Assembly (NCBI GenBank): GCA_014925825.1 | Contig: JACGCK010000003.1 | Location: 1,116,001 to 1,180,000 of the forward strand | DNA from: Pholiota molesta | Taxonomy: Eukaryota; Basidiomycota; Agaricomycetes; Agaricales; Strophariaceae | DNA: 64,000 nt | Direction of reading: 5' to 3' | Part shown: positions 5,106-37,264 of the stretch, piece after piece | How the letters are laid out: the number at the start of each line of letters is the position of its first letter | Position numbering within the stretch: position 1 is the first letter of the stretch | The notes under the pieces: generated by a model | Database searches by the model: none | Told to the model about the DNA's origin: nothing | What the model saw: the letters and a program-made list of their open reading frames with translations, nothing else | Translations under genes and position numbers: made by a program

Positions 5106-6056
5106 TTTGGGTACATCGAAACAGTGAAGACTATGAAGCTTCAAAGCTTTACTAATACCAGTGATGAGGCAGGTGCCGGTGATCAATCCATCAATTCATC
5201 ATGATCATGAGGCATTTCATTTTACAGCTGTATCCGGGGTCCTGCTTTCCCTCCGCGAATATGCCGCAGCTTACCAGGGCGCAGACGTTCTTTCGTTCCT
5301 CCCATTCAAGTGCCACATAGCCAGCGCTACATAGCCTCTCAAGCACCCCTCCTCTGCATTTCCCCTGTTTTGTGATGGTTCATCCGGAGTGTGTATCCTC
5401 TATTCCGTCTGGATGGTTATTTCCATGGATCGTATCAGATCACCTGAACTCCTGGCTGCGCTCTATTGACCTTGGTTGCAACATGGTTGCTTGCTTTCGA
5501 CAGTTTCGAAAATACGCACAATCGTAACGCTCCCTAATCAACAAGTTCCTCTAATGCTGGATTATACACTACCATGGGATGCTCCTGACTGGCCAATCTA
5601 GCGGGGAATCGATATTTTCAACATGCTATCTTAATGACAGCCACCGTTGCTTTCTGTTGTTCCCTTGTCATACAAGCGCTTCCAATTTCCTCTGCTATGA
5701 ATGGTATTCTGTCATTCCTGTCCTGATACTATACTGTGGGCAACATTGATCATCTGTTGTGGTGTTCTGATTGACTATGTACCAGCGAATTCTTACTTGC
5801 AATATTTCGCATGACATTCCTCAGCTATCTTGGTTTCCCTCTGATATGACATCCCCATATGTGTTGGGGAACAAATTTTTTTCCTGCACTCTGGCATTCT
5901 TTCTTCTATGCCCATGCTTTGCAACCAGTTCGCACACTGAGATCTCGGAAGCATCCGATCATTGGAACTCAATTGAAAGGCCGATAGACTCAAGCTCACC
6001 GTTATTTAGCCTGGGCGTCGTTACAATATTGACACCCTATCCCACCTCGCAAAGAC

Positions 6057-16900: not shown

Positions 16901-18348
16901 CAATGTCGACAATCGCTGGATAGTGCCATACTGTCCCTTCCTTTCTGCAAAATATAATTGCCATATCAACGTGGAATGTGCCGTCTCACTCAGCTCCTTC
17001 AAATATGTCTTCAAATACATTCAGAAAGGAAGTGACATGGCAACTATGGCAATCCACAGATGCGACGAAATCAAGCAATGGATCGACGGCCGTTACATAT
17101 CTGCCTCTGAAGCTGCCTGGCGCCTTTTCCATTTCGACATCCATGAACAAAATCCTCCCATCACCCGTCTACAAATCCATCTCCCAGGTCAACATATGGT
17201 GGTATTTGATCCCAATGATGACCCTCAAGCTGTACTCAACCGCGCCGCAAATGAACAAACGACTTTAACTGCGTTCTTCGAAGCAAACTGTGATGATGGT
17301 CCTCTTGGAGAGCGTGCACGTACTCTTACCTATCAAGAATTCCCCCAGCACTTCACTTGGGTCAATCAGCCAGCAGATGGTCGCAGGAAGCATTGGAAAC
17401 TTCGTGAGCGTGGTTTCGCTTTAGGTCGGATGTACTTTGTTCCTCCAACAGGTGGAGAGCGCTTTTACCTGCGGACACTCCTGACAGTGGTGAGAGGCCC
17501 GAAATCATTCCAAGACCTGCGAACGTATCAAGGCCACGTTTACAACACCTTCCAAGAGGCCTGTCTGGCCCGAGGCCTTCTGGAGGATGATAACGAATGG
17601 GAGCAATGCTTGCGGGAAGCATCCGCTATGCAGACCGGCTTTCGGCTTCGTCAACTTTTCGCAACCCTTCTCCTATTCTGCGAAATTTCCCAGCCCGCCC
17701 GCCTCTGGGAGCAGTTCCGGGAACACATCTGCGACGATCTTCTTCACCGTCTGCAGACCATGGGCTTTGCCAACGTTTCAACCACACAAGTCTACGATTA
17801 TGGCCTTTATCTGTTGAATAAGCAACTGGAGGAATCTGGCCGTCAACTTTCTGACTGGCCAACCATGCCACAACCGGTTTATAATTGGGACATTCAGGCA
17901 ACAAACACCCTCATTGCGGAACAGTTAAATTACAACCTCAGTGAACAGCGGGCGCTCTTCGATACGTATCTTCCCACCTTGAATACTGAACAGCGTATCG
18001 TTTACGATGCTGTCATGACATCTATTAACGAAAACACTCCGCAGCTCTACTTCGTCGACGGATCTGGTGGTACGGGGAAGACCTATGCATATCGCACGAT
18101 TTGCTCAAAACTTCGAAGTGAGGGCTTGATTGTTCTCGCTGTCGCTTCATCCGGCATCGCAGCTTTACTAATCCCAGGTGGCCGCACTGCACATTCAACT
18201 TTCAAGATCCCCATTCATGGTCTTTGCGGAGAATCGGTCTGCACTATCTCCAAAAACAGTTCTCGTGCTGAACTCCTCCGCCGTACAAACCTTATTATTT
18301 GGGATGAAGCTGCAATGCAACATCGACATGCAATCGAAGCCCTGGATC
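13970..18348 (+). CDS. Helitron Rep/helicase protein, N-terminal part (split by KDZ insertion)
   Basis: Initiates rolling-circle transposition by nicking and unwinding DNA. Exons 13970-14021, 14094-14434, 14487-14858, 14910-15026 and 15084 onward join in frame; those at 14487 and 14910 have no ATG but are bounded by GTAAGT donors and AG acceptors. The first ~300 residues are Arg/Gln/Pro-rich with 58-residue repeats. Then come the Helitron N-terminal domain, the Rep HUH motif (RGLPHMHLLI, near 16585), the Tyr motif (KYVFKYIQKGSD, near 17005), and the Pif1-type helicase start with P-loop GSGGTGKT (near 18061) and Walker B LIIWDEA (near 18290). The frame breaks at the 8-bp duplication 18341-18348; it would otherwise continue at 36228. 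Ancestral length is about 1727 residues. Confidence 0.92.
14511..14858 (+). repeat. Two 174-bp coding repeats in the Helitron protein
   Basis: Two direct copies, 174 bp (58 codons) apart, encode the basic block RRSQAQRERR followed by a Pro-rich part (QPPPSFPSQRDSQ) and NITPV-NRSP. A third, partial copy of the basic block is in the next exon at about 14928-14985. Successive exons also start (E/D)N and end in Ser before GTAAGT, which suggests exon duplication. Confidence 0.85.
18341..18348. repeat. Left target-site duplication of the KDZ element
   Basis: CCTGGATC, identical to 36220-36227. It lies inside the helicase codons Ala-Leu-Asp; the frame is the same on both sides. Confidence 0.9.
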
Positions 18349-18535
18349 ACATAGCGCTGCGGCATGGTACCGTGTGACACGTTTGATTGGCTAACTACTT
18401 TGTACTGTTGGGAACGGTTCCGCTGGTCAACAATGGCTAGTGTACAATGTACTGTATAACACGGCACACTGTCTATAATACATTGTATCATTGCGAACGG
18501 TTCCACTGTACACTGTACATGTCTGCCTACCGGGC
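18349..18535 (+). repeat. Left terminal inverted repeat of the KDZ element
   Basis: Matches the reverse complement of 36045-36219 with many substitutions. Shared blocks include ATTGGCTAACTAC, CGGTTCCGCTGGTCAACA, ACATTGTATCATT and ACGGTTCCACTGTA. The outermost ~20 bases are less alike than the inner part. Confidence 0.85.
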
Positions 18536-18734
18536 GGCATCCCATTCGTTTTAAGATGCGGCATCATATGAACTTGACGGCATCCTATTTCTTGTCAGGG
18601 TGCGGTGTCAGATAGATGGCCGGCATCCCCGTTAGTAATGGTGCGGTGTCATGTGTATTGTGCGGCATCCCTTTGTCTCATGCTGTCCCCTCCGGAATGT
18701 GGTCTTTCCTTGCAAAAGGATGCCGCTCATTGTG

Positions 18735-19370
18735 CTACAATGTAATGTGTAATACGGACCACTGTCCAAAGTACATTGTGCCATTTCGAACGGTTTCACT
18801 GTTCACTGTACATCTGCATGGGAAATGTTGCGGCGTCATGGGTAGATTTCCTTCCGACACGACGCCGCTTGCCGTCATACAATGTAACGTGTAATACGGA
18901 CCACTGTCCACAGTACATTGTGCCATTTCGAACGGTTTCACTGTTCACTGTACATCTGCATGGGAAATGTTGCGGCGTCATGGGTAGATTTCCTTCCGAC
19001 ACGACGCCGCTCGCCGTCATACAATGTAACGTGTAATACGGACCACTGTCCAAAGTACATTGTGCCATTTCGAACGGTTTCACTGTTCACTGTACATCTG
19101 CATGGGAAATGTTGCGGCGTCATGGGTAGATTTCCTTCCGACACGACGCCGCTTGCCGTCATACAATGTAACGTGTAATACGGACCACTGTCCAAAGTAC
19201 ATTGTGCCATTTCGAACGGTTTCACTGTTCACTGTACATCTGCATGGGAAATGTTGCGGCGTCATGGGTAGATTTCCTTCCGACACGACGCCGCTCGCCG
19301 TCATACAATGTAACGTGTAATATGGACCACTGTCTTAAAGCACATTGTACCATTTTGAACGGGGTCACCC
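18735..19370 (+). repeat. Left subterminal array of 142-bp units
   Basis: About four and a half direct copies, period 142 bp. Each unit holds an inverted pair of octamers, GCGGCGTC and GACGCCGC, around TAGATTTCCTTCC, plus TACAATGTA-like and ACATTGT words. Apparent open frames here are by-products of the repeat. Confidence 0.93.
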
Positions 19371-19580
19371 TACACTGTATGTGTACTGTGCGGCATCCTA
19401 TTTTGTGATCAAGCAGGGTGCAAGTCCCGACCTTGCGGCATCCCTCATGTGGAAGGTGGCACAATATAGGTGCCTTTGTACATCAATCAATTCATCCGGC
19501 ATCCCATATTCAATGTTGCTGCGGCATCTTTAATTGATTTATCTGGCATCCCATATCAATTGTAGTTACACATGTACCTA
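19371..19580. other. Spacer with GGCATCC words
   Basis: Short non-coding spacer between the left array and the first minus-strand gene. It holds several (G)CGGCATCC words at about 19391, 19436, 19497 and 19521. Confidence 0.5.
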
Positions 19581-20496
19581 TTACATAGAATCCAAATCTC
19601 CTTCCTTATGGTAGGGGAGTGAGTCATCGGGCTTCGGTTGTGGATCATCCAAAGTTCGGAAAGACTCGAGGTGAACAACAGGAGCAATAATATCGGCTGA
19701 GATAGCCTGTTTGACCTTGGTCTGGAGGGTGGAGACAGCATTGCGCATATCGGCATATGCGCGCAAGGTTGCGACCTCATTCAAATAGAGTCGGTGTGCA
19801 GCATCCTTGTATGATAATCCATACAAAGATTGCATAATCACCACTTCATGGTGTAACTCCACGCCTTCACGGTGTGTTGGTATCTTGGAAGGTAGTAGGT
19901 AAGCAAATATTACAGGGAGCGAGATTCTTTCCGTACCGGATCAGGAGGATAATCGACATCCCCTCCGCCAGTTGTACGCAACCAGGTTCCGTGCGAGGAT
20001 TTGGCTGAGAAAACAAGAAAGTCAGCGAAAGAAATTATGGATGTGGACGGCATCATGGGCAAGAATCTTAGCACATTCTGAGGACGCCGCATTGTGGCAT
20101 CGGCACACATCGTTTGGGAGCCCAGTCAACAGCATGATGCCGTCAGACCAAACGGCATCCCCCACATCATGCTCGGAATTGACAGACATCATAGGATGCC
20201 GCCAATGTGGCATCCAATGTCGATCACTGCAAGCAACTGACCTTTGTGTGAGGGATGTCCTTCCAATCCTTGACTGCAGCGATATGACGTTGAACCAGCT
20301 GTTCAGTAGGACCGTTGAGGTAAGGGGGAACCAGATAACGGTTCCCATTGCCATCGGCAAACGAATCAAAGCCACGGGGTATCGCTAGATCAAAGGGATC
20401 TGGAAACGGGGAAGGCGGGCGCGACTCTGGATCTGTTTCTGCGGTTGCGGAAGGGGTGCGAGGTTCTTTATCTGTTTCTGAAGACTTGTCGGCCAT
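19581..20496 (-). CDS. KDZ-element accessory protein of unknown function (about 200 residues)
   Basis: The first exon, 20496-20242, starts MADKSSETDKEPRTPSATAE and ends before a GTCAGT donor with IPHTK. A second exon near 20010-19934 reads SHGTWLRTTGGGDVDYPPDP, and the last exon ends at 19581 with a helix-rich part (LYGLSYKDAAHRLYLNEVAT, LQTKVKQAIS). The phase between exons 1 and 2 does not fit my splice choice, so an exon border is wrong or there is an indel. The first intron is long for this genome (about 230 bp) and crowded with GATGCCGC-type words. No family recognised. It lies head to head with the Zn2Cys6 gene, 243 bp apart. Confidence 0.6.
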
Positions 20497-20739
20497 TGTG
20501 TTGTATAGATGTGAGCGATAAGTGAAAAGATTGCAAAACTTAAATTTCTTTGATAAGAAAATTCCGGTGACTGGAGCCGCAAACAAATGATGCAGAATCA
20601 ACCAAGGTGTTCGTGGGAAGGCCTCGATCATGTGATGGTTTGTTTTGTGTTTTGTGGGTAATCTCATACGACGCGTTACCTATCCTGAACATCTACGTAG
20701 CCGCATCCCACCGCCGCTCCCACTCCCCCTAATTCTAAA

Positions 20740-22745
20740 ATGTCTGTTCAATCCATTATTGATGCTCTCTTGGTTCAAGAGAACCGTCTTGTGTCTGCTA
20801 TTCTTGAGAACCGTATGATGGAAGTTCTCCCCCTTTTGAACGCCGAGGCAGTAAGTTCACCCAATAATGTTTTATGTTCATGATATTTATCTATGCAGAC
20901 GGCAATTTATGACAGAGCAAGCCACTTGGATCAAGCGGGGATGGACCAAGTCAACGGGAATGGCCGATTGTTTCATACTGCCATCATACATTACAACACC
21001 TTCTTGAAGACCGAGGACCATGATGAGGCCGCTTTGGTGAAGAAGATCCTACGTGCCCGTGACAAAGCCCAAAAGGCAGCCCTAGCTGCTAGCGCCTCGC
21101 AGACCACGGCTGTGGTGCAGACACCATCTGTCCTGCCTCCCCAACTGCCCCCAGTGCATTCAGCTGGATTCCCCCCACCGACGCACAAGGGACACCAACG
21201 CCGGTGGTCAGTGTTGCGGCCAGGTCACCAACGCCGCCTTCCCTGCCTCCCCAACAGGAGCGTTTAGGTCCCACCCACCACAGATTGCTCCCCTCCATGC
21301 AACATGCTCCGACGCCGATGTTGCCATCACGCATACCACCTCCTGCTGGCTCATCAAAAACGACAGCAGCTGCTCCGCCGCGTGATCGCACCATGCCGAT
21401 TGTGCCTGTGCAGTCCACATCGGCGTCCCTAGCAATGGATCGATCCATGCCGCCTCCAAAAACCGTGAAGACCATGCCGCCCCCTGGAGTGAAATTCGGA
21501 CCACCACCAGTTCAACAGATGGCGCCTGGTCCTGCACGGCCAAAGAAAAAGTCTTCGGTACCAGAGACGATTCCAGAAAAACCCAAAGTTGGTGCTGCGG
21601 TGGATGAAGACGAGTATCAGCAGTCAGAGGTGGAAAGCGAGAGGGAGACAAAAAAACGGAAGATGAAGCCGACGGTGAAGGCACAGGCCAGGGAGGAAGG
21701 AAAGCAGAAGGCGACCGCGAAAAAGGGGAAGAAGAAGGCCAAGGAGGCCGCTGCTGACGAGATGGAAGCTTCGGCGTCGGACGCCGATGATGAAGGATTC
21801 AAGAAAGCGCAGAGAGCGAAGTCCAAAGGCAAAGCAAAGGCCAAGGAGGCCGCTGCTGACGAGATGGAACTTTCGGCATCGGACACCAATGACGAAGAAA
21901 TCAAGAAAGCGAAGAGAGCGAAAGCCAAAGGCAAAGGGAAAGCGACGGCTGTGACGGAGGATGAGGAGGATGCCAGGAAGCCCACATCGAAACCACGCCC
22001 CCTGAGACCAAGCGGCCAAGCATACCCACAGCCATGTGGTCCTTGCGATGTGGCACATGAAATGTGTGAGATGCCAATTGGAGGAGAGGGCTCCTGCATA
22101 CGCTGCAAGACGCGCCGCATTGGCCCATGCCTGTACAAGATGACTGACGAGGACAAGAGCAAGGCCTACACCACCTTCGTTCCCAAGAAACCCAAACGCA
22201 AGCCCCAACTCGAAGACGGCGACATCGACAAACTCCACGCGATGGACCCAGAGGCGGCGTCCACCTCACTTGCGGCATCCACCGCTCTTTCGGCGTCCGT
22301 CTCCAAAGGGGCGCCAGCCAAACAGGCGTCCACCTCCAAAGCGCCACCAACCAAACAGGCCTTAGCGCGCCCGAATAGTGCCTCGGTCCTGAAGCGCATC
22401 GATGAGTTGGAGGAGCGGATGACGCTCTCAAATAGTGCCTCTGTTCTGAAGCGCCTCAATGAGTTGGAGGAACACATAGGCCAGCGTGTGTTGGGATTCG
22501 AGACCGGACTTGCACGCATGGAAAGCCTGCTGGAAAGCTTAGTGTGGGAGATGGCGGCGGCGTCGTCTACAAATCCACCAGGCCCCTCTGGTGCCAGCAC
22601 TGCTGCCGATCCCATGTCCATGCCGTCTCCACCACCACAACAAGAGGATGCCGTGCCATCGACATCAACCCCGGGTATACTTGAGCAGGGGCCGTTCTGG
22701 GATCGGAGCATCGCGAAGAACGAATGGCATCCCCATCTAATGTGA
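20740..22745 (+). CDS. KDZ-element accessory protein with Zn2Cys6-type cluster
   Basis: Exon 1 (20740-20850) begins MSVQSIIDALLVQENRLVSA; exon 2 starts at 20899 in phase. A frame change is needed between about 21080 and 21204 (unrecognised intron or indel), after which the frame is open to 22745. The protein has a Pro-rich part, a Lys/Ala-rich basic part with the repeat KAKEAAADEME, then Cys with spacing C-x2-C-x6-C-x9-C-x2-C-x7-C near 22033-22130. That spacing fits fungal Zn2Cys6 DNA-binding domains, though it sits in the middle of the protein. Two coiled-coil repeats (SASVLKRIDELEERM / SASVLKRLNELEEHI) follow. A strong donor (GTGAGT at 22742) sits at the end, so it may continue into the next feature. 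Possible role: DNA-binding regulator of the element (inference). Confidence 0.65.
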
Positions 22746-22757
22746 GTACAGCTGCCC

Positions 22758-23717
22758 ATGTCATCTGCCCCACCACTGATTGCGGCATACACCTTTCAGA
22801 CTGAAGAGACAGAGAATGGGATGCCGCCCACGCAGGCAGTCGGCCGTCCAGTCGCCATGGATGCTGCCACAGAAGATGTAGACGCCGTGGGTGACGGCAT
22901 AGCTCCGGCTGAGGGTGCATCGTCCTCCAAACCCAAAAAGAAATCGCAAGGCAAGAGACCTTCTAACTGGGTACCGAGGGGCGCGCACAAAACATGGGCA
23001 AAACATTCCTCCATCAAGCCTTACCCACCGGGCACCAAAATCGACATGTCAGAACTCCCCGAAGTCCGTGCAGCACGCCAGCGAGATGAGTTTTGGACAC
23101 ACAAGCGAAACGAGCGTGCACTCGAGGTACAAGAGCAAGAACGTCTGCTAGCGGCATCCCGTCCCATAGTCCAGACGGCGTCCCCTGCCAATCCTGCGTC
23201 CCAACCTGATCCCGTGGTCCAGACGGCATCCCCTTCTGATCCAGCCCCAGCTGTCCAGACGGCATCCCCTGCGAATCCAGCGTCCCAACCTGATCCCGTG
23301 GTCGAGACGGCGTCCCCTTCCGATCCCGCCCCTGCTGGCGGTGTCCTGCATCTGTCCCAACCTGATGCCATGGTCCAGACGGCGTCCCCTTCCGATCCCG
23401 CTACCGCTGGCGGTGTCATGCATCGCCCAGTTCCTGACCAGGAAGCGGCGTCCATGGTGAATGACAAGGACGTGGTCTCCTCGCCACTTACCGACCCTGA
23501 GGACCCCATTGGCCCATCTGTCCCTGCCTTGACACTACAGCCCCCCACACCAGAAGGCTCGGAGGCGACCCCAAATTCGCTTTTACCACCTTTCCAACCC
23601 CGTCGTAGTAGCCGTTCGCATAGCCCCGCTCCTGCAGCTGCGGAATCGTCGAAGTCATCCAAGAAGCGCAAGGCGGACACAGTTGCTGGTGGTTCCAAGA
23701 AGCGCTCCAAGCGTTGA
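22758..23717 (+). CDS. Pro/Ser-rich, basic-tailed accessory protein (possibly 3' exon of the Zn2Cys6 gene)
   Basis: Open from an ATG at 22758 for 319 residues. A good acceptor (CACCTTTCAG) ends at 22799, so the part from 22800 could instead be spliced to the Zn2Cys6 gene; with the donor at 22742 the phase does not match, which leaves the model open. The content is the basic segment KPKKKSQGKRPSNW, five or so tandem QTASP(A/S)(N/D)PA repeats at 23160-23415, and a nuclear-localisation-like tail (SKKRKADTVAGGSKKRSKR). No family recognised. Confidence 0.5.
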   Translation: MSSAPPLIAAYTFQTEETENGMPPTQAVGRPVAMDAATEDVDAVGDGIAPAEGASSSKPKKKSQGKRPSNWVPRGAHKTWAKHSSIKPYPPGTKIDMSELPEVRAARQRDEFWTHKRNERALEVQEQERLLAASRPIVQTASPANPASQPDPVVQTASPSDPAPAVQTASPANPASQPDPVVETASPSDPAPAGGVLHLSQPDAMVQTASPSDPATAGGVMHRPVPDQEAASMVNDKDVVSSPLTDPEDPIGPSVPALTLQPPTPEGSEATPNSLLPPFQPRRSSRSHSPAPAAAESSKSSKKRKADTVAGGSKKRSKR

Positions 23718-23956
23718 TTCTGGTAGTCGTTTGATGAGGATGTACATACATGTCTGGTGATTTTTGGGGGCGCTTACTTTTGCATCTGTCATTTTCTTGT
23801 CATACACTAGGTGGCCCGTAATTTTGGCGATAATATATTCTCTTGTGGTGACTTAGATGAGCATCAGATTTCCAAAGTAAATGGGCAAAGACATAGGTAA
23901 TTGGCATGATACAACATTGATGTATCTATTAACAGCACAGTTAATCCATGTGTACT

Positions 23957-26893
23957 TTAACTTTCACGTACTTTAACTTTCCGAACCCTCTTAGCTCCTA
24001 TCCCTTCACAGATTCGGTTCATTTCTCTAACCTCCAATGATTCATCCACACCGATCTGCGCGCATGTGGCGGCATCCTCCTCTTGACTGTGCTTGCGCTT
24101 CGGCCCTCGTTTCTTGGTTGCACTCACTGCGGCATCATCCATTGCATGCCGCTGAGGGCTCTCGGCGTCCTCTTCTTGACTGCGCTTGCGCTTCTGCCCT
24201 CGTTTCTTGGTTGCACTCACTGCGGCATCATCCATTGCATGCCGCTGAGGGCTCTCGGCGTCCTCTTCTTGACTGCGCTTGCGCTTCTGCCCTCGTTTCT
24301 TGGTTGCACTCACTGCGCCATCATCGACTGCATGCCGCTGAGGGCTCTCGGCGTCCTCTTCTTGACTGCGCTTGCGCTTCTGCCCTCGTTTCTTGGTTGC
24401 ACTCACTGCGCCATCATCCATTGCATGCCGCTGAGGGCTCTCGGCGTCCTCTTCTTGACTGCGCTTGCGATTCTGCCCTCGTTTATTTGTTGCATTCTCT
24501 GCGGCATCATCCATTGCATGCCGCTGAGAACTCTCGGCATCCTCTTCTTGACTGTGCTTGCCCTTCTGGCCTGGTGTCTTTCGTGCATTCTCTGCGGAGT
24601 TGCGCAGTGCATGCCGCTGGGGCGGCATCTGAGATGCATGATTGGGCTTGTGTTTGTGTGCTGGTGTCTTTGGTGCATTGAGTGCGGTGTCAGCGAGTGG
24701 ATGACGCTTGGACAGTTCCTTCGATGCCTCGCCATCGGCATCGTCTGCTTGATTCCGCTTGTGCTTCTGGGCTGGTTTCTTTGGTGCATTCACCATGGTG
24801 TGAGTCGCCGTGGGTGGTGCCTTTGATCCATTCGCGTCGGCATCATCTGCTTGGTTATCAGGTGGGGTGGCATTCTGACCGTCGACATCTGACACTGGTT
24901 CGTCAAGAGCACACTCGGCATCCCATTCATCATCGTTCGCAGGCGGCGTGGCTGGCGATGGCATGCGGCGGACTGGGGTGTAGGATAAATTATCGACTTC
25001 ACTCTGTTCACTGTCCTCATCAGATCCATTATCCTCTTCCGAGGGGGAGATGTTTTCCTCCTCTTCCGAGGTGGTAAAGTTTTCGAGCTCCTCGTTGCGT
25101 TTTTTCTTTGCTAGAGTCACCTTCTTCTTAGCTTGAGCGCGGCGTCCTCTTTGAGTTGCTGCATGTTTTGCACGCTTGGCAGTGGCAGCAGCCTCAGAGC
25201 CGGTGTACAGTGCATCTTCCAAAGTGTTCCCTGATAGATATGATGTCCATCGAAATGCATGTGGGATGCCGTGTGCATTTTGACGGGTGCGAATGTGTTC
25301 CATAATCTGTAGGATGTCGTCGCGCGGCATATATGCGGGATCTTTAAAATCAACACCAGCGGGCAGGTACTTTTTCTCGACAAAGTTTTTGATGTTCTGA
25401 GTCACGCTCGCATATGGTGTACTTCCATATTTTCCCCCAGATGCAATATCTGCAGAATGGTCAAAAATGACTTCGAAGATATGCCTAGACACCTACTGTA
25501 GTGCTTGTTCAGATATCGACGTAGGATGTCTCCCAATTGCTTCTTATTGGCATAGTGGGTGGGATTAGACGATGGCATGGTCGGGAACCCATCCGGACTA
25601 ACCACAATTTGGAGGTCATGCCGCGGAACAATATCATTAGATGGGTCCAGGATGCCGGATGGGTTTTTGAGATTGTCAAGGTTGCGCACGTAGGCGTATA
25701 GCTGTGTTTGCAGTTCTTGGCACTGATTCTTGAACATGCCAATAAAAGGAGGCGCAGTGACGCCCATGTCCTTGGCCATGTTATCATGCCTAGAGATGCC
25801 ATTAGTATATTGTCATTCGCAACTCTACAAGTAAATACCACTTACACATTAAAGACCCACTTTCCCTTTGTATTCTTTCCGGCAAAAAATGTGAGCTGCA
25901 GGGCCCCCATGGATAACCACTGCGTCGACGCAGCCTGTGCAATTGTGCGTCGGCCTCGTTTTTCAAAAAGCCTAAGATGGACATTGTCAGTACCAATGGT
26001 TGTCGGGGAATGCCGCATCCTGTCGGAGATGCGGCATCCTATCACGGACACGGCAGCCAATCACGGATGCGGCATCCCATCATGGATGCGGCATCCCATC
26101 ATGGATGCGGCATCCCATCTTGGATGCGGCATCCCCAAAGATAATAGGAGACTTACGCCTTCTGCTTAACGGTGGATGACCCTCAGTGCTGCGTTTCATC
26201 CACAACTCCAGTAACTCTTCATTTTGTGCAGGGTTGAGATTGCTGCGCGCCCGACTAATACCCACATTCAATAGTGGGAAATATTTTTTGTGGGCAGCGG
26301 GATCCTCGTCGGGACCTAAGTGCATGAGTTTCCGTAGCTCCTCATCCACTTCGCCAGGCCAGAGTTCACGTACAAGGTCATGCTTGCGAACAGTGACCTT
26401 GCCCGCTGCATTGACCTGGATATGGTGGTGCCTTCGCCAATTGTTCCGGATGTGCAACGTGAGCTTCTGAAAGATATACCAAGATGAAATAATTACAGAT
26501 TCACATAAGTTATGGAGACTTACCTTCACGAGCTCTATCTTCACCTCTGGCACATTCAAATTAGGTTTACTGTGTTTTGCCCAATAGGCAAAAATCGCAG
26601 GAAGTATGTCCTCCCTCATCATGACGATCCGCCGTTCACGGTCAAATTGACGTTCGTAAGCGATACGGTACTGATTGAGTACCCGCAGTTCCGCTACGTT
26701 ATAACTACAAGGCGCATACTGCTCACGGGGTGACTTCTCGAGCGGAAATTGAGGGGGTTCGACCATTTGCACACGAAGAAGATGACAAGGAAATGATGCG
26801 CTGGCACGCCGTTGCGCACCATCTGATCCATGCCATTGCGGTCCCGTCAACAGAACCCACGGATCGGCAAATCGGAAGTGGACAGGCACAATG
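23957..26893 (-). CDS. KDZ-element accessory protein with 31-residue basic/acidic repeats
   Basis: Exons read as about 26893-26524, 26466-26157, 25971-25846, 25789-25497 and 25449-23957. The 5' end is uncertain (no good ATG; an acceptor TAG lies just upstream), and one junction (26157 to 25971) is out of phase by my reading. The N-terminal half is globular, with FRFADPWVLLTGPQWHG, ILPAIFAYWAKHSKP, LTLHIRNNWRRHHHIQV, WLSMGALQLTFFAGKN and the AKDMGVTAPPFIGMFKNQ block. The C-terminal half is disordered: acidic stretches, then six copies of a 31-residue unit (KKRGQKRKRSQEEDAESPQR...) with nuclear-localisation-like KRKR. About 860 residues. Family unknown to me; convergent with the Zn2Cys6 side and divergent from the transposase. 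Confidence 0.65.
24070..24620 (-). repeat. Six tandem 93-bp coding repeats
   Basis: Period 93 bp (31 codons) inside the gene above. Every unit carries a GCGGCATC or GCGCCATC word and a GCATGCCGC word, so the dispersed element motif is embedded in the coding repeat. Confidence 0.9.
26065..26134. repeat. Four 19-bp intronic repeats with a 13-bp palindrome
   Basis: GGATGCGGCATCC begins at 26065, 26084, 26103 and 26122. The 13-mer is symmetric apart from its central base. It lies in the intron 25972-26156 of the minus-strand gene; related single copies occur just before it (26026-26040). Confidence 0.9.
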
Positions 26894-26974
26894 AGATCTA
26901 TGCATTAGATATGGTAATGATCCAAATAGAGGTATAGATCTGCATCTAGATTGAGATGATCAATTACTCGATAT

Positions 26975-27780
26975 AGTACGTTTCTACATAAGTAAAGCTG
27001 GCTGCACCAAGCAGCAAGCACGACGTATCGATGGATTGATTATCGTCGAGCCTCTTAGCATCTGACCATTAAATATATATAGAACGGTTGTTTCTTTATT
27101 GTAAGGACTGACTTTTCATACCTAGACTGATTACATGACTGTGTTCCAGAGACTTTGCACAAATAACTTGCAATGCATGCCGGTAATTTGAAGAAATAAA
27201 ACCTTGAGGGAGTTGAGTGTAAGGATGCCAACCGTGGCCACTATAGGATTATCGTCGAGCCTCTTAGCATCTGACCATTAAATATATATAGAACGGTTGT
27301 TTCTCTATTGTAAGGACCGACTTTTTATACCTAGACTGATTACATGACTGTGGTCCAGAGACTTTGCACAAATAACTTGCAATGCACGCCGGTAATTTGA
27401 AGAGATAAAACCTTGTGGGAAATGAGTGTAAGGACACAACCGTGGCCACTATAGTATTCAGCATCGAAGAATTGAAGAAATGCCGATGAGGCACGAAGAC
27501 ACATATCAATGTTTCCAAAAACATCTGTGATTCAAAATAGTATGTTTCTAGAATAGTAAAGCTCTCGGCACCAAGCAGCCCACACGAAAATTATATCGAT
27601 GGATTGATTATCATGGCACCTCGTAGCTGCTGACAATTATATATATATAGAACGGTCTCATCTCAAATTTAACGACCCTCATTCCCTACAGAGAATTACT
27701 GTGCTACCACGGCGCAGCAACTTCGTGCAAATAAGTTTCCATGCCTCGCCGTAATTTGAAGAAACGAGAATTCGAAATCC
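26975..27780 (+). repeat. Transposase promoter and start region present in three copies
   Basis: The block containing ATGGATTGATTATC, the TATATATA-AGAACGGT box and the CTTGCAATGC-GCCGGTAATTTGAAGA end occurs at about 26975-27215, 27247-27410 and 27545-27770. Only the last copy has the ATG followed by an open frame; in the first two the same place reads into a stop. Confidence 0.85.
27638..27649 (+). promoter_or_regulatory. TATA element of the KDZ transposase gene
   Basis: A TATATATATA stretch about 92 bases before the ATG at 27741. Equivalent boxes exist in the two upstream relic copies, at about 27075 and 27284. Confidence 0.5.
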
Positions 27781-30700
27781 ATGAAGACGATGAAAATGCC
27801 GCACCTGCTACGGGCTTCAACATTGAAGAAACACAAAACCCCAATGGTACATCATCTTGGTATCAGAGCACCATACCACTGTTTGTGGAACCATCACAAT
27901 CTACTAAACGGCCAAAAACGCGAGGGAATTTGAAAGCTGCACTGGTGGAAGAACCTATTCTTCCTGACTTCGATGATTACCATGATGATTTAAATCCTCC
28001 TCCTATTGGAAAGGTGAGCCCAAGAATTGATTTTGTCTTAGTCCATTTATTGAGACAAGGCAGAAACCATCCGACCACCTAAATGAATTTAAGGCAATGG
28101 CTCATTTGCTCCTCAGTGGATTAATGGCTCGGGAATGCATTCCTCATATGCAAGCGTGCTCAGGCTGTAAATCCAGTAACCTTGCAATTTGGCGTTGTCG
28201 GGATTGTACAACACCGCAGACTTTATGTCGGCTGTGTATGAGAACATTGCATGCGCAGAATCCTTTGCATTGGATTGAGTGTTGGACGGGAAGATGCTTT
28301 CGGGAAGCATCTTTATGGGAAGTTGGCGTGCACATCCTGATTCCTCACCACATCCAAACCAACCTCTGTGCATCTCTTAAATTCCAGGAAAAGCATTTGG
28401 AGGATTTGCAGCGAGCAAAGGATGCCGAAGAACAAACAAACTTGAGGACTAAACAGTCAAACAACTTAAACAATGCAGACTGCCCTTCAGATGCGACACC
28501 TGCAATACCACCTTCATTCAAGCAGCAACTAGATGATGAAATACTTCGAAATTTCGACGATAATGATCATTACGATGAGGATGACGACGCCGACGATGAC
28601 ACTGTGCTAGAGCATGAAGACCTACCTATTTCACCTGAACCTGCCACCAATTGGAGTGAGGTTTGCTCTGCAGCCGGCATCCCAAGTTTCCCAGCATCTG
28701 GAAACAATATCAGCAGCGCAGATCAAGAGGATGCCGCAATGTTTGCACCCAACACCGAATCATACGGCACATCCACAATTCAGGCTGCGGTGATGTCCAC
28801 TTCCCAGACTCTGCCTGAAAATGTGTCATTTCACTATGCCGCAATGGACAGCAAGCGAATGGCGGCATCCTCATCACTTGATGCCGCTCAAGCTACATCA
28901 ACATTTGACAATGCCGCAATGGACATCACGCCAATGGCGGCCTCATTCTCCACTGATGTTCAATATATGGCAGTCACCAGCGAACCAAGTGCACTGCGGG
29001 TGGCATCCTCATCTACTGATGCCGCTGGGGTGAGCTCAGTCAATACCATGCCATCGAGCACAATGAAACACTCCAATCTCTCAGGCGGCATGGGCACCTC
29101 GCTTCGCCCCGATGCACCTAGGGCAGACGCCATGATGAATCCATATGTCCGTGTTGTCCATACGAATGGTGTGCACACAATCGGCATGGTTTGTTGCAAA
29201 TGCCAAGGCATTGAGCAAACACATGCGGACTTGATGGCTCAGCGTATGATGCCGACGACATTTTCTAGATATAGCACCCTGTTCACTGTGGCAGTCCTCG
29301 ATGACTCGCGGCTGTCAAATCTCGAGTGCAAGACTTCTGTATATCAGTATTTTCAGAAGCTGAAAAGGATGACAGCACCGACTTCATTTGGGGATGTACC
29401 AGATCGATACCGGGAGTTTCGACGTCTGGCTAGGCAGTGGCGGTGGTTGAAATCACTGAAATGGCATGGCGTGGCTCACACAAGAGACGATGTCGATGCT
29501 CTCCGGCCTGGGGCGCTCACACTGTTCTGCCCAGCATGTCCTCAGCCTGGCGTGAATATTCCCAACAATTGGAGAGACGAACCTGATCAGTACGCCGCTT
29601 TTCTTACCATTTCAACCTATTAATTCACCTTCATTTGTAGGAATCTATACCTAAGGTCATATGTGGCAGATGGCAATTTTAAGGCTGACCATGTGCGGCA
29701 GCCACGCTCTCAGGATGATGTTTGGTTCTCCGAAGGGGCAGGAATGATGCCGACTCGCCAGGATTACGAAGAATTCCTGAAATGTGTTGAGGATATCCGA
29801 ACGGTGAGTGCATGCATGGCATCATATATGGCATCTTATGGCGTCCCTGATATTTGTTTTATTTACACAGAAAGCGCCATGCCAAAACATATTCCGTGTA
29901 ATTGAACTGGCAATGTTGTTGTCAAAAGTCTGTGACATAACTGGCCTTGTGGCCATAGCATGTGCGCGGCATGGGTGTTTTGCACCTAACAGCCTTGTCA
30001 ACCTTTTCCGTGGTGAACAACAGAGAAATGTCGATTTTGCGCTCTTGGCTGCACTGAAGACCACCAACACTGATGGCATCGAGAGGATATTATTATTATA
30101 TGACATCGCTTGCCAGTATCATGTCAATCTGACACAACGTATCGGCGACCGCCTACCTTTGGGATTACAGGTGGACCGCGGCATTGGGATGTTCCATGTG
30201 CACGGACATCAAGAAGAATGTTTCTTCCGCTTTGCTCCTAGTTTTATTCCCGGTGCAGCTAATGTGGCCGGCGAAATTTTGGAAACCCTCTGGGCATCGT
30301 TAAATACAGTTTCTTCATCAGCGCGAACAATGACATTGGCAGCGCGGGCAAGTCTCTTGGAAGATCACACAGCGGATTCAAATTTCAAAAAGATGGTCGG
30401 CATGGGTTTGTTTTCCAATTGCTTCTTGGATGGCATCATGTGCTAACAATTGAATACTTAGCGGCATCATTATCCGCAGCTTACCTCAATGCGACTGAGC
30501 ATCGTGCCACGGCATCAAAGTACTTTGAGAAGCTAGCCTCCGGTCTGCAACCATCCTCGATCAAGTTATGGGATGAGCAGATTGTGCATGCTGAGAGCAT
30601 TCGCTTTGAGCATCCTTCTGCAATGGATGTGATGAAATCAGACACGGCATCCATGCCATCTGCACCTGTGCACTTTGATGCTGTGACACACGATGATTCA

Positions 30701-31927
30701 GCCATTGCACAATGGCTTTCTTTGGCCCTTCAAATGGAGGCCACTCAGTATGTGCTTATTTATATGATGTATGCTAATTTCCTCAACCTGTGCTAGAGCA
30801 GACATCTGTGACAAAGTCAAGTATCTGGTGGATGAACCACTGGAAAGTGATCGCCAACACATTCAAAAAATGCGGCAAGAATTGACTGCGCAATTTGAAC
30901 TCCTGGCATCAATAGAACAAAGTCTCAACATTGATAGTGGTGGAACGATCATGGAGTCAGATGACATGCTGCATTCTACTATTTTTCACGACCTTGATAA
31001 TGACGCCGGTGATGGGGAGGGCAGCGCGGCATCGTCAACCAATCGGTACCATGGGTCGAGCACAAGGATGCCGAATGCTGAATCGGCATCCCCTGCTCAG
31101 ACAATCCCGGACATCTGCCCGGAACTTCGTCGCATCAACTTTCCTTCATTGTTTAGTTCACAATCTAGAGGTGACAACGGGGACGCATCTATGCGCCAGT
31201 TCCGGCCAATCGAACTCCAACATCGCAAATACCACGCCGCATCTTTATTAGGGAAATTGCGCGAAGTCATTGCAGAAAAATCCTTTCAATATTCCCATGT
31301 TATTAGGAAGGCTCACAAGAAGGCAGTGAAAACACGCTCCCGGGCCCGCGTTTCGAACCTCAGTGATACTATAGCACTCATTGCCAAAGCCTACGAACGC
31401 AACAGACTAGCAATGGTCCGATTGGATGCAGACCAGTATACTCTGGCAACTTTCAAACCCCTCACAAGGCAAGATCTTAGGGCTAGCACCGCCGTTCTTG
31501 ACCCTAACGAGGTGGGGTCGAAGAACTTGACTCTGTCGTGGGTATGGCAAATGACTTTGAACCATGCCGATAATTCAGCTGCTGCTCTTGAAGAATGTGC
31601 GTATACATCCTCTTACAATATTGCCATCTCAAACATTTTTCAGTTCGGCGTGTTCACTATCTCCGTGCCAGAGCAAATAAACAGCGATGGGAGGAAGAGT
31701 TTCGCTTAGTACAACACGAAATGTCCTGGACAGCAAGATTCTATCTTCGTCAAATTGAAATATGGCAGCATCATGCAGCAAAGGCGGCATTGGCTCAATA
31801 TCCTGGTGCGGCATCGTATGCTTTTCGAAAGGTTGCGATGTGGGAGGCTATGTTGACCCATGCCGAAGCACGATTCAGGCATGTCAATGACACTTATGAC
31901 TCCCTGGATCAGTTCCCTGCTACGTAA
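27741..31927 (+). CDS. KDZ transposase with CxC2 domain
   Basis: Catalyses cut-and-paste transposition of the element. Seven exons (27741-28013, 28094-29589, 29641-29803, 29871-30405, 30462-30747, 30797-31596, 31644-31927) join without a stop to 1278 residues. Residues ~106-175 form the CxC2 cysteine cluster (CSGCKSS..., CRDC, CRLCMRTLHAQNPLHWIE). A low-complexity insert with AAS/DAA runs follows. The KDZ core begins near residue 480 (CCKCQ...LFCPACPQPGVNIPNNW). Candidate catalytic acids are Asp in VADGNF (~600), Asp in YDIACQY (~721) and Glu in GEILETLWASLN (~778); HGHQEECFFRF and CARHGCFAP also match the family. The C-terminal part is helical (RRVHYLRARANKQRWEEEF). No break seen, so it may be active. 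Confidence 0.93.
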
Positions 31928-32120
31928 ATGTTCCAATGTAGTCATTTCGGTCAAATGAAACTATGCTCAATATCCTGGTGCGGCATTGTATGCTTTTCGA
32001 AAGGTTGTGATGTGGGAGGCTATGTTGACCCATGCCGAAGCACGATTCACTACACTTTGGTGGCATCATAGATTTCCAAATGGTTACAATGTCGATGGAA
32101 TGTTGATCCATGCCGACGCA
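31928..32120 (+). repeat. Partial tandem copy of the transposase 3' end
   Basis: From about 31964 the sequence repeats the last exon (CTCAATATCCTGGTGCGGCA..., the AAAGGTTGTGATGTGGGAGGC block, then CCATGCCGAAGCACGATTC). A shorter third echo lies at 32070-32125. These copies are non-coding. Confidence 0.85.
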
Positions 32121-32254
32121 TGATCTGGCTATGTCAATAATGCTTACTCTGATTGTAAAATGAAATTACATAATACATCCCTTGATCGTACAGAGCTGCA
32201 CTTGTGTTTACTCTTATCACAAAGCCATCTACACGAGAACCCTAAAGCCCTACA

Positions 32255-34601
32255 ATGCATCCCAAAGGTACCGGCATTCTCACTCTCCACACACCTTTGG
32301 AACGTCGCTTTCAAAACCGAGAAAGGGTCAGCAGAGACGCTCAGCATGTGATCTACTATGCAGAGTCCAGATTCCGTGCAATTTTACTTGCGCTCTTGGA
32401 TGGCCCCTCCGAGTCGCACAGGAAACATCTCATTTGGGCTACTTTTCGTATGGAAGTGGTGAGCATGGAATGCGGATTGGAACATTTCAATGACTGACAC
32501 CTTTAATATAGGAATATGTTCTGGCGTACATTGGTGCCGCCTGCATCCTTTCGCGGGAATTTAATGTTCCTCTTATCATTCGCAGCCTCGCAGGCTCAAT
32601 CAAGACCGTCTGGTACAAGAAAAATGTCATCTTTGACAAAGAAATGATTGCTTACTTAAACGCTGGATTGCCCCACGGGGACCCTTGTTCCCTGGTCGAG
32701 ACATATCAACATGACTGGTGGAACTTGGACACGGATACATTATCCACGGCGTACGACGACAGTACGCTCGTGTTCCTCGAGGCCAGAACGGTATATGAAT
32801 GTCTTCATGTGCACCTGGACCAGATTTTGCCATTGACGGAAGATGCTGCCTATTCCAAGACCTATTACACATGGGGCCAATGTTCAAGCTTTCGACCATC
32901 TAATTTGGAAAATGCATGCGACGAGTGTATGTCCTACCGTGCCGTCACCTTCCGTGCGCTTGATGTGTTGTGGGATATGCAGAAAGAACTTGATGCCATA
33001 GGCAATGCAGCCGACAAACGTCACGACCAGGCACACATTCGAGCCAGCAGATTCTTCCGATTATACGAAGCCGCTGCTACTTACGATGACACCGTTACTA
33101 TGGAACCGCTGTCGGTAGTGCCTCCGTTAGGTACAAGTGCAAACTTGACCATGCCGCAGGACGCGGCGTCCCCTGTGTCTCCAATTGGTACAAGTGCAAA
33201 CTCGACGATGCCGCCGGACACGGCGTCCTCTCAGTCACCAATAACCCCATACCCCAAGCCTTTTACCATGCCGTCGGTAGAGTTTCATCCCCCAGTGCTA
33301 CGGCGGATAATGCGGTAGCCGCACGGAACAATACAGATGATGCAAAGGATATGCCGATAGCCCATCTCGCAGAACAATTTCGTGTTGCACATGCTGAGGG
33401 GCTCCGCCAGTGGTTATCTCTACCCACTAAGCTGTGGACAGTATCCCCAGACGTCGGGGAAAATCATCTAGGATTCATTTTTGGATACGAGCCCAATGAC
33501 GATGGTGAACACTCAGGCTACAATGTGTCACTGCCTTCCACTGGACTGAACACCGCTGACACTCCCCCATCCTTGTCCGCCCACTCTGATGTCGGCCTGG
33601 ACGCCGATGCAATCAATTTAAACATAGAACATAGTGTTCCACCTCTTCCTCGTGGAATGCTTCCTCATGCATTCAACTTTCCTCCACTCGGTCATGGACA
33701 AGGAAGAGATCATGACAATCAAGTTCAAGCCACCAACACGATCGTGCCTGATGAGAGGGCTCCAACGTTCCAACCCAAAGCACTGTCTGACAGCGATAAT
33801 GATGATGCCGCACACGGGTTCCAGCCCAAAGCACTTTCAGACAGTGATGACGCCGCACCGGCGCTTGCAACCCATGCCGCGGTCATGTCACGTCTCAGAA
33901 GGTCGTTCCAATCCAAAGCAATGTCTGACAGCTATAACAATGCCGCACACAGCTTCCAGCCCAAAGCACTTTCCGACAGTGATGACGCCGCACCACGGAA
34001 AATCAGCAGGCTCACAGCCACCATGCCACCATTGCAACGACACCGCCAATTTGTTCCAACCTCAATTCTGTCTGACGATGAGGTAGAGGCCGCACCAGGA
34101 AACGTCCAACGCCGCCCATTCATTCCAACCTCTATTCTCTCTGATGATGAGGAGGACACCGCACCAGGCGAAATTAGCAGGATGCCGCAATCACAACAAC
34201 GCCGCCGATTCCTTCCAACCAATCTTCTGACTGACTCAGAAAATGAAGATTCCTCTGCCCATCAGCTTGACGCCGTATCCCATCTGCCAACAGGTGTCCC
34301 ATCCAATAACATGCCACTGACCGTTTCCTCTGCGGCATTCTCTCCGAAACTGGCCTTCCAACCGAAAGGACTTTCTGAATCGGAAGAGGAATCACGGACA
34401 GTTTCCTCTGCAGGATCGTCTTCGAAACTGGCTTTCCAACCGAAAGGACTATCTGATTCGGAAGAGGAACTGTTGGATAGTGAGGATTCCTTTGATGGTC
34501 AACAAGTTGAGGATGTGGATGTTGCCCATACCTCAGCTCAGTTCACTGCCGAAGCTTTCCGCGATATTCCTGATGATATGTTGGACATTGGTAGTGAGTG
34601 A
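32255..34601 (+). CDS. KDZ-element accessory protein with FQPKALSDSD repeats
   Basis: Three exons (32255-32458, 32512-33276, 33348-34601) join in frame to 740 residues; the second donor (GTAGAG) is weak. The N-terminal ~270 residues look globular (TPLERRFQNRERVSRDAQHV, EYVLAYIGAACILSREF, then HDWWNLDTDTL). A linker with LGTSANLTMPQDAASP repeats follows. The C-terminal 300 residues hold about nine degenerate copies of F-x-P-K/T-x-(L)-S-D-S/D-D/E followed by acidic residues and AA, resembling casein-kinase-2-type acidic Ser sites. No family recognised. It is transcribed in the same direction as the transposase, 327 bp downstream, so co-function is an inference from position only. Confidence 0.7.
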
Positions 34602-35046
34602 CAAGGAGATACAGCACCTGATGTGTCAGTAAATGTACTACAGTTGATCGAACAATATACTTTTGGCACTGCCTCGTATTAGGAAAGAGTGCATGGAACG
34701 TTGGAGAACAAAAATCCCCCACTCCAGTTTCTTAGACAACTCGTCTGGAGATTGTTCCCTATTTATTATAAAAATATCCGGACACCAACAAGGTTCGAAC
34801 CAAAAGTGCCTGATATTTCCCAGTTTCGGTAGCTGACAGGGCGCCATTCGACTCCTACACCACATAAGCATTTCCTGAACCTGGCACCTATGCCCATGAA
34901 GCATCCTCTGAAATTGTAGGCGGCATCGTCTTGCAAAAGTCTCTATCATGCCATGAATTGCCAGGCATGGTGTCCTGTCAGAAACTCATATCCTGAAATC
35001 TTCCCCATGATACCGCAGTATTTCCCACGCGGATGTACAGTAGACA
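34602..35046. other. Spacer between the last accessory gene and the right array
   Basis: No gene recognised. Contains GGTTCGAACC at 34791-34800, discussed among the rejected items. Confidence 0.45.
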
Positions 35047-35840
35047 GTAAAAGCGTTCAAAACGGTGCAATGTATCTTAGACAGTGATCGGTATTACATA
35101 GTACATTGTAGGACAGCGAGCGGCATCCTCTCTGAGGGAAATCTACGCATGATGCCGCAACATTTCCCACGTAGATGTACAGTAGACAGTGGAACTGTTC
35201 GAAACGGTACAATGTATCTTAGACAGTGCTCCGTATTACATAGTACATTGTAGGACAGCGAGCGGCATCCTCTCTGAGGGAAATCTACGCATGATGCCGC
35301 AACATTTCCCACGTAGATGTACAGTAGACAGTGGAACTGTTCGAAACGGTACAATGTATCTTAGACAGTGCTCCGTATTACATAGTACATTGTAGGACAG
35401 CGAGCGGCATCCTCTCTGAGAAAAATCTACGCATGATGCCGCAACATTTCCCACATAGATGTACAGTAGACAGTGGAACTGTTCGAAACGGTACAATGTA
35501 TCTTAGACAGTGCTCCGTATTACATAGTACATTGTAGGACAGCGAGCGGCATCCTCTCTGAGAAAAATCTACGCATGATGCCGCAACATTTCCCACATAG
35601 ATGTACAGTAGACAGTGGAACTGTTCGAAACGGTACAATGTATCTTAGACAGTGCTCCGTATTACATAGTACATTGTAGGACAGCGAGCGGCATCCTCTC
35701 TGAAGGAAATCCACCCATTGGCCATGATGCCGACACATTTCCCACGCAGATGTACAGTATACCGTGGAACCGTTCCCAATGGTACAATGTTCCACAGCCA
35801 GTGCGCCGTGTAACTCAATACATTGGATCTTTCTCCCTAG
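35047..35840 (-). repeat. Right subterminal array of 142-bp units (inverted relative to the left array)
   Basis: Five direct copies plus a partial one, starting at 35047, 35189, 35331, 35473 and 35615. Each is the reverse complement type of the left unit. Here the octamer pair reads GCGGCATC and GATGCCGC, that is CA/TG where the left array has CG. Confidence 0.93.
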
Positions 35841-36044
35841 GCCGCACGCTACACACACAGTATACTGTGCTGCCGTTCACAATGGTACAATGTTCCACAT
35901 TGAAATGGGATGCCGTATCAATGCACAGAGGATGCCGCTCCGGTATATAATTCACATGATGCCGCTTTTACATGTAACTGACGCCGCACCATATCAAGAG
36001 GGATGCCGCTGCACCAAAAGAAATGATGCCGCACGTTACTAGCA

Positions 36045-36219
36045 TGCGTACAGTATACAGTGGAACCGTTTCAAATGATACAATGTGCCTGCGACAGTGG
36101 TCCATGTTACACAATACAATGTAGGACTGGCCAGTGTTGACCAGCGGAACCGTGACAAACGCTACAATGTAGTTAGCCAATGTGATGTGTTACACGATAC
36201 CGTGACATGTAGGTACCTG
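36045..36219 (-). repeat. Right terminal inverted repeat of the KDZ element
   Basis: Inverted partner of 18349-18535, ending directly at the 8-bp duplication. Shared blocks in reverse complement are listed under the left repeat. Confidence 0.85.
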
Positions 36220-36227
36220 CCTGGATC
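36220..36227. repeat. Right target-site duplication of the KDZ element
   Basis: CCTGGATC, identical to 18341-18348. The helicase frame resumes here as Leu-Asp-Arg-Ser-Leu. Confidence 0.9.
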
Positions 36228-37264
36228 GCTCGCTGCGTGACATCCGTGGTGTCGATAGACCATTCGGAGGAATTACAGTCCTCTTCGGTGGCGATTTCAA
36301 GCAATGCCTTCCAGTCATTGAAGACGCAAGCAAGGAAGAAATCGTGAATTCCACCCTTCAGAATTCCTATCTCTGGAAACATATCCACATCCTTCACCTG
36401 CACCAAAACATGCGACTGGCACGCGGAGATGGCGATAGCAATTTCGCAAACTGGCTACTTGATATCGGCTATGGACGAAACCTGTTACCCAACAACATGG
36501 TCCATCTCCTGCCAGAAATCTTAACAACTTCACCCGATGCTCTTATTGATGCCATTTACCCCAACATCAACACCACTCCTCCACCGCCTCGAGAATACTT
36601 TGCAAACCGAATGATTTTGGCTCCTCGCAATGACGATGTCACAGAACTAAATGCGCAAATTCTGAAAAAAATGTCCGGAGTGGAAAAGACGTATTATAGT
36701 GCTGATAAAGTCATCCGAGAAGCAGGTGCTGATGGCCCTTCCATGGACACCCAATCAGATGATTTCGAACAACCGCCAATTCCTGTTGAAGTTTTACGAG
36801 ATATGGATGAAGGAAATATCCCTCCAGGAGAACTGACTTTGAAAGTTGGTTGTCCTTTAATACTTCTCCGCAACTTGAGGCCTACAGAAGGACTTTGCAA
36901 TGGCACGCGTATGGTCGTAACCTGGATGGATGAACGTGTTCTGGAGGTTCGCCTGCTGGGTGGAGAATATGATGGGCAAATCGCACTTATCCCTAGAATC
37001 ACCATCACGCCTCGCACCCAGCGTTCCTACAGCTTCACGAGACGCCAATTCCCGGTTCGTCTCGCATTCGCCCTTACAATCAACAAGTCACAAGGCCAAT
37101 CAGTGAAATACGTTGGCCTCGACCTTCGTGTTCCTGTCTTCGCTCATGGCCAACTTTACGTCGCACTTTCCCGAGTCACGTCAAGCAGAAACATCCATGT
37201 TCTCTTGCCTGACTCAAGCCAGTCCACACGTAATGTAGTGTACCCTGAAGTTTTGTTAGAGTAG
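36228..37264 (+). CDS. Helitron helicase, C-terminal part (split by KDZ insertion)
   Basis: Continuation of the protein that begins at 13970. It starts in mid-domain with SLRDIRGVDRPFGG, then the Pif1-family motifs GGDFKQCLPV (near 36290), a long insert, LRNLRPTEGLCNGTRM, motif V (LAFALTINKSQGQS, near 37065) and motif VI (YVALSRVTSSRN, near 37160), ending at TAG 37262-37264. Upstream plus downstream coding length with one copy of the duplication is a multiple of three. This fragment has no start codon or promoter of its own that I can see, so the helicase is presumably inactive. Confidence 0.92.

Follow-up and report, generated by a model that had tools for sequence, protein, structure and literature searches.

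The closest described counterpart of the element considered here is the VANC/VANDAL system of Arabidopsis, in which anti-silencing is sequence-specific (PMC5735166, PMC10398659). Also relevant are the fungal Zn2Cys6 proteins, which typically recognize pairs of CGG triplets (PMC5559640). We analyzed a stretch of 64,000 nucleotides from Pholiota molesta, hereafter the window, in which a Kyakuja-type KDZ element occupies positions 18348 to 36219. A short CGG-containing word is enriched throughout this element, and within open reading frames it exceeds codon-shuffled controls. Dense pairs of the word are limited to the element's own family, and each of five related families has a distinct word of its own and one gene for a Zn2Cys6-pattern protein. 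The reading that we prefer, albeit tentatively, is that the element-encoded Zn2Cys6 protein would bind its own dispersed word and co-evolve with it, open chromatin being the likeliest benefit.

The dispersed word and its place in coding sequence

The exact octamer occurs 45 times between positions 18349 and 36219, as 28 copies of GCGGCATC and 17 of GATGCCGC, and is absent from the other 46.1 kb of the window. These counts bear out an earlier interpretation made from the letters alone (the sequence-only reading), which had described a word recurring dozens of times in both orientations and almost missing from the host genes and the Helitron. When 8-mers are ranked by enrichment in the element over the flanks, GCGGCATC and CGGCATCC lead the list (45 to 0 and 42 to 0), and they still do so after seven repeat arrays have been masked (25 and 27 to 0). 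Dinucleotide shuffles predict 2.2 copies of the degenerate form GCGGYRTC in the 17.9-kb element (maximum 7 in 60 shuffles), where 70 are present; for the 46-kb flanks, 4.8 are expected and 7 present. The motif is wider than the octamer: of the copies of CGGCRTC, 106 are in the element and 8 lie elsewhere, and the motif model, gCGGC(A/G)TCc, has 144 sites, 74 and 70 by strand, with 121 distinct 17-mers. Even spacing of the words was rejected (mean 167, median 61, maximum 2294 bases). The palindrome GGATGC-S-GCATCC, of which the word had been said often to form one half, was also rejected as the unit; that description was too strong, as the palindrome has four copies, all in one 19-bp array at 26065-26135.

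The layout of the element is given below in window coordinates. The limits of its open reading frames are those of open frames, not of transcripts; the 927-residue protein P0001 is annotated in public data.

18341 to 18347, plus strand: left 7-bp target-site duplication, CCTGGAT
18348 to 36219, unstranded: Kyakuja-type KDZ element with CA..TG termini (ends and flanks read; CxC2 and KDZ Pfam matches)
18534 to 19528, unstranded: left subterminal words, six GCGGCATC and one GATGCCGC
18736 to 19362: left 142-bp array, in which the words have the GCGGCGTC form
20740 to 23714, plus strand: candidate reader gene, annotated 927-residue protein P0001
22035 to 22130, plus strand: Zn2Cys6-pattern domain, C-x2-C-x6-C-x9-C-x2-C-x7-C
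23960 to 26904, minus strand: opposite-strand gene region with open reading frames 23960-25492, 25405-25812 and 26083-26904
24070 to 24580, minus strand: 93-bp repeat inside an open reading frame, with three GCGGCATC; a fourth GCGGCATC is at 24622
26010 to 26135, plus strand: 19-bp word array, the sole place of the four GGATGCGGCATCC palindromes
28031 to 29620, plus strand: transposase open reading frame with CxC2, four words
29808 to 30443, plus strand: transposase KDZ catalytic open reading frame, zero words
32512 to 34598, plus strand: gene 3' of the transposase, its C-terminal part repetitive, three exact words counted
34920 to 36032, unstranded: right subterminal words, six GCGGCATC and eight GATGCCGC, some inside a 142-bp array at 35006-35790
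36220 to 36226, plus strand: right 7-bp target-site duplication, CCTGGAT

Nineteen of the 45 words lie in long open reading frames (nine stretches), where they are read in several frames, as Ala-Ala-Ser, Asp-Ala-Ala, Met-Pro and Cys-Arg. The use of different frames agrees with the sequence-only reading. Its statement that the exons of all element genes carry the word is too strong, as there is no exact word in the KDZ catalytic frame. Synonymous-codon shuffles of the nine stretches yield a mean of 3.7 words (standard deviation 1.7, maximum 10 in 400 shuffles), and a stricter shuffle that preserves dinucleotides at codon junctions yields 6.8 (maximum 12 of 60). That is, neither control reaches the 19 observed. 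A codon-shuffle excess is also seen in three sister families, C533, C25 and C168; in C168 the count is 13 against 3.9, a value reached by none of 400 shuffles. The opposite-strand gene region contains eight words, in two of its frames, and frames resembling those of this region are present in C25 and C168, as judged by eye.

These data bear on whether the word has spread neutrally, that is, whether it rides on expanding minisatellites and low-complexity coding repeats (Asp-Ala-Ala, Ala-Ala-Ser) and has no reader. Twenty of the 45 exact words do fall within the masked arrays, and many of the exonic ones sit in low-complexity protein. Yet 25 remain in 14.6 kb after masking, compared with none in 46 kb of flanks, and the 121 distinct 17-mers and nearly equal strand counts also speak against neutral spread. 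Synonymous shuffles retain the amino-acid bias and still fall short, and the same word is found in the interior of another copy, C24, which cannot be aligned with the window element. We therefore consider neutral spread improbable.

The transposase of the window element, a KDZ protein with CxC2, matches PF18758 (E-value, E, 1.3e-37) and PF18803 (E 6.3e-17). CA..TG ends and a 7-bp duplication are present in both of the two copies read at both ends (CCTGGAT in the window, GCTCGAC in C24). Kyakuja elements are characterized by a lack of terminal inverted repeats; in the window element, inverted arms of 81% identity begin about 15 bases in from the ends (18363-18441 with 36126-36204). The insertion splits a long helicase-like frame (15069-18374 and 36206-37261), which the sequence-only reading had labeled a Helitron. 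Upstream of the transposase is a 209-bp direct repeat, 27038-27458, whose surrounding kilobase is free of GCGGYRTC and CGGCRTC. In the host part, two RING-like cysteine clusters are seen by eye on the minus strand (48099-48200 and 50412-50513).

Other copies and the ends of the element

A search with the left 400 bases of the element identified ten further copies, of which the first 169 bases are common at 85-88%. Nine are two-ended, with ends 3.4-3.9 kb apart; the tenth, C593, is one-ended. The sequence-only reading had named two outcomes that would speak against it, namely codon-shuffled genes with equally many words and other copies in which the word is not enriched; both were sought, and neither was observed. 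The C24 copy, read whole, contains 28 GCGGYRTC in 3.5 kb against 0.2 expected. By blastn (E up to 1e-3), its alignment with the window element is confined to both ends and the terminal arrays; 21 of the 28 are in its non-aligned interior. Three further copies, two of them identical in the part concerned, have 10, 10 and 8 exact words in their left parts. Genome-wide, pairs of the form GCGGCATCC-N10-40-GCGGCATCC occur at 65 places, compared with 0 for the reversed control; 64 of them belong to the window element or to one of the nine two-ended copies, and the other is about 1.7 kb into the one-ended C593 copy. Single 9-mers discriminate poorly: GCGGCATCC alone is found 819 times against 373 reversed. 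As for the insertion site of the C24 short copy (L070, C24:703081-706616), it is inside a tyrosine-recombinase-like gene, as judged by eye; the interrupted L070 frames are 639-1109 and 4570-5223.

The position of the words bears on another account, in which the word serves the Zn2Cys6 protein or the transposase as an accessory site for joining the ends of the element, interior and exonic words being by-products. For such accessory binding in end pairing, the CACTA TnpA of plants is a parallel; its subterminal sites consist of many short motif copies near both ends, in both orientations. The words resemble those sites in number, in location and in orientation. Specifically, the terminal ~1.25 kb stretches at the two ends together contain 21 of the 45, and those of C24 are at 0.2-0.95 and 2.5-3.35 kb of its 3.5 kb, with none in between. 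About half of the window words, however, are interior (24 of 45) and many are exonic; end pairing has no need of these 24, nor of the 19 in open reading frames, and it leaves the codon-shuffle excess in exons unaccounted for. In addition, a separate set of end-limited motifs exists. All 22 element copies of ACAATGTA are in the terminal ~1.25 kb, as are 22 of 24 TACAATGT, 12 of 13 ACTGTACA and 7 of 9 GAACGGTT. Because this set is nearly confined to the ends, it seems a better match for transposase binding than the word. We thus regard a role of the word in transposition as unlikely, although it deserves to be weighed seriously. The terminal motifs sit in inverted subterminal arrays, 18363-19362 and 35004-36204, and are likely transposase sites.

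Sister families, their words and the candidate reader

A KDZ domain search returned 52 matches; none was found in viral contigs. In a tree of 39 blocks, the window element groups with C533, C25, C168/C127 and C356/C263/C94/C212 (split support 0.97), and the KDZ domains of these five families are 55-62% shared. Each family has its own word. Alongside GCGGYRTC in the window family, these are CGGCATCGG in C533 (22 in 14 kb, shuffle mean 0.1), CGGCCSS, i.e., CGGCCGG/CGGCCCCG, in C25 (74 in 12 kb, mean 8.4), YACCGGT in C168 (52 in 11.9 kb, mean 2.0) and CCGRCGA in C263 (26 in 7.3 kb, mean 1.6). The last was first noticed in the transposase block; a further 3 kb, examined afterwards, contain 8 CCGGCGA, whereas the background has 16 in 175 kb. 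CGG is part of all five words. The window word itself occurs 4, 0, 2 and 2 times in the four sister families, within the shuffle maxima. The constraint on a DNA word rather than on protein that the sequence-only reading had proposed is thus supported, because the codon-shuffle excess, the word in the non-alignable interior of a short copy and the family-specific words all point to it. Among distant KDZ blocks (3-4 kb each), most have no strong word. GACCGG is raised to 26-33 per 10 kb at C45:84830-88027, C46:249228-252683 and C613:164518-167865, with 14 per 10 kb in the C356 group and 13 in C25; the stretches read around the C45, C46 and C613 copies contain no Zn2Cys6 pattern.

Zn2Cys6 domains are characterized by the cysteine spacing C-x2-C-x6-C-x5-12-C-x2-C-x6-8-C. 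In 294,430 bases read in six frames, this pattern is found without a stop five times, once per family. The five frames encode 256-550 amino acids, are on the transposase strand and lie about 4-6 kb upstream of the transposase. Only the six cysteines are common to all five domains. Outside the domain the genes are homologous: that of C168 matches those of the window (E 3.6e-11) and C263 (E 1.6e-6), and those of C25 and C533 are linked in small pairwise comparisons (E 1.6e-4). A profile of the five domains gave 20 hits against the PDB, all weak, of which 13 are fungal Zn2Cys6 proteins, the best being LEU3 (E 0.042); one of the 13, 6e33, we take to be such a protein. Searched against proteins, the window domain has one match, its own protein, named Pholiota molesta; for the C533 and C168 genes, no homologue was found at E 0.01 among 5.8 billion proteins (about 8000 scored candidates each). 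Weak matches to these two genes are present at C234:15167-15508 and C193:44586-44996. The former matches the gene of C533 (E 3e-4) and has a KDZ copy about 6 kb away; the latter matches the gene of C168 (E 1.3e-5) and is on a contig with no listed KDZ match.

Of the three readers that had been suggested (the transposase, the CxC2 domain and the Zn2Cys6 protein), we favor the Zn2Cys6 protein, because one such gene is found in each of the five families, all words contain CGG, and little of the domain is retained beyond its cysteines. For the transposase, ACAATGTA seems the better match. The word, on either strand, would be the putative binding site of the protein encoded at 20740-23714. This protein would coat family copies, among them the short derivatives in which only the ends and many words are left. 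In each related Kyakuja family, a different protein would be paired with a different CGG word, the two drifting together. Words may multiply by tandem duplication and by single gains, and so reach tolerant parts of exons too. Many bound sites would then hold the chromatin of the family open, through activation or anti-silencing, as VANC does on VANDAL; this is the likeliest benefit. A more far-reaching proposal, which we hold with less confidence, is that the Kyakuja clade has mutually orthogonal self-recognition codes within one genome, whereby a private Zn2Cys6 protein would coat the whole element, its coding sequence too, at the family's CGG word, letting the element and its short derivatives escape silencing while rivals are not activated. 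Taken jointly with this proposal, and subject to the same doubt, co-evolving anti-silencing of the VANC type would have arisen independently in the clade, and its target would be part of the element's own exons.

A quite different possibility is that the word is a host mark, i.e., that the host rather than the element reads the CpG-bearing word, as a target for silencing or methylation. All five words do contain CpG. In the clade, CpG is mildly depleted (observed/expected 0.71-0.85, compared with 0.90-0.96 in the window flanks), and TpG/CpA is raised in the window element and in C24. A host signal, however, would be expected to be common, yet each sister family has its own word, largely without the others; the element would gain nothing by piling up silencing targets; and the CpG inside CGG has been kept (GTGGCATC 4 and GCAGCATC 4, compared with 45). 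We thus judge a host mark very improbable. Nor do we favor an origin of GCGGCATC from GCGGCGTC by CpG decay alone, because the decay forms are unequal (CATC 45, CGTC 17, TGTC 7) and the CpG of CGG is retained. In favor of the reading that we prefer, a comparison of the left and right arrays, whose units are not independent of one another, shows 8 differing columns among the 63 within words, each of them at the A/G wobble, and 109 among the 568 outside.

The mild CpG depletion hints at past methylation, and it argues against full protection from methylation. Binding of the word by the Zn2Cys6 protein and the countering of silencing by such binding are what we infer, and a role in transposition is the main rival. 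Other results also weigh against the reading that we prefer. In C263, in which one open reading frame was tested, there is no codon-shuffle excess (4 against 1.9, maximum 6). Two cross-signals exceed the shuffle maximum, YACCGGT in C263 (6, maximum 4) and CCGRCGA in C168 (7, maximum 5), and for C25 and C168 the data used to pick the word overlap with those used to count it. Word pairs are also less restricted in these two families: for C25, the element holds 11 of 19 places (control 1), and for C168, 12 of 39 are on C168, 8 of them in the stretch read and 4 near 44.6 kb (control 26). Single CGGCATCGG 9-mers number 677 genome-wide against 303 reversed, the first 100 places listed being scattered. 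C45, in another part of the KDZ tree, has a weaker CGG word (GACCGG, 10 in 3.2 kb) and no Zn2Cys6-pattern gene within the 9.2 kb read. The idea that words are better conserved than the remaining sequence in four short copies was dropped, the difference being too weak: with C24 as reference, 15 of 377 positions differ in words and 279 of 4534 outside; with the other three, of which two are identical in that stretch, the figures are 10/398 and 168/4530, 10/398 and 164/4528, and 22/357 and 300/4500. As to the protein, a Pfam scan recognized nothing in the Zn2Cys6-pattern domain, its predicted structure is uninformative (mean predicted local distance difference test score 54), the other 7 of the 20 PDB hits are six nuclear receptors and one other, and a crude heptad (coiled-coil) score, taken in the neighboring frame for C533 and C25, is above all 100 shuffles in only three of five families.

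Comparison with known systems

Among the open-access papers listed in literature searches, the KDZ-founding paper not being one of those read, none was seen to deal with a comparable word in KDZ elements. The Kyakuja elements of Agaricomycetes (Kojima 2025, PMC12730594) resemble the window element in the KDZ transposase, CA..TG ends, 7-bp duplication and Agaricales host; the excerpt of that paper mentions neither an internal word nor a Zn2Cys6 gene. Described Kyakuja carry a TET/JBP gene (PMC12730594), whereas none was matched in the ten window-element open reading frames scanned with Pfam. The lineage is already known for carrying DNA-demethylation genes.

The candidate reader resembles fungal Zn2Cys6 factors such as Leu3, Gal4 and Pho7 (PMC5559640) in its six-cysteine spacing, in the CGG of every word and perhaps in a coiled-coil-like stretch after the cluster in the window protein. 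It differs in being transposon-encoded, in having no Pfam match and a weak profile match, and in keeping little but its cysteines. If the proposed pairing holds, the five families would provide a naturally occurring set of Zn2Cys6 domains that differ in their targets, and five short words with five short domains make specificity and orthogonality testable.

The likeness to VANC/VANDAL (PMC5735166, PMC10398659) is closer. In both cases a short motif is dense in the copies of one family, rare elsewhere and partly in tandem repeats; related families have different motifs; and a fast-changing candidate DNA-binding protein is encoded by the element. VANDAL motifs, however, are mainly non-coding and in one orientation, whereas 19 of the 45 window words are in open reading frames and the strands have 28 and 17. 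Exons of such elements can be shaped by constraint at the DNA level. VANDALs are Mutator-like, whereas the transposase here is KDZ and the candidate reader a Zn2Cys6-pattern protein. VANC binds its motif and removes methylation; the corresponding activities of the candidate reader are putative. Plant VANDALs are a described case of motif and reader co-evolving in transposons; if our reading is correct, the Kyakuja clade would be a fungal case, with another transposase and another DNA-binding fold.

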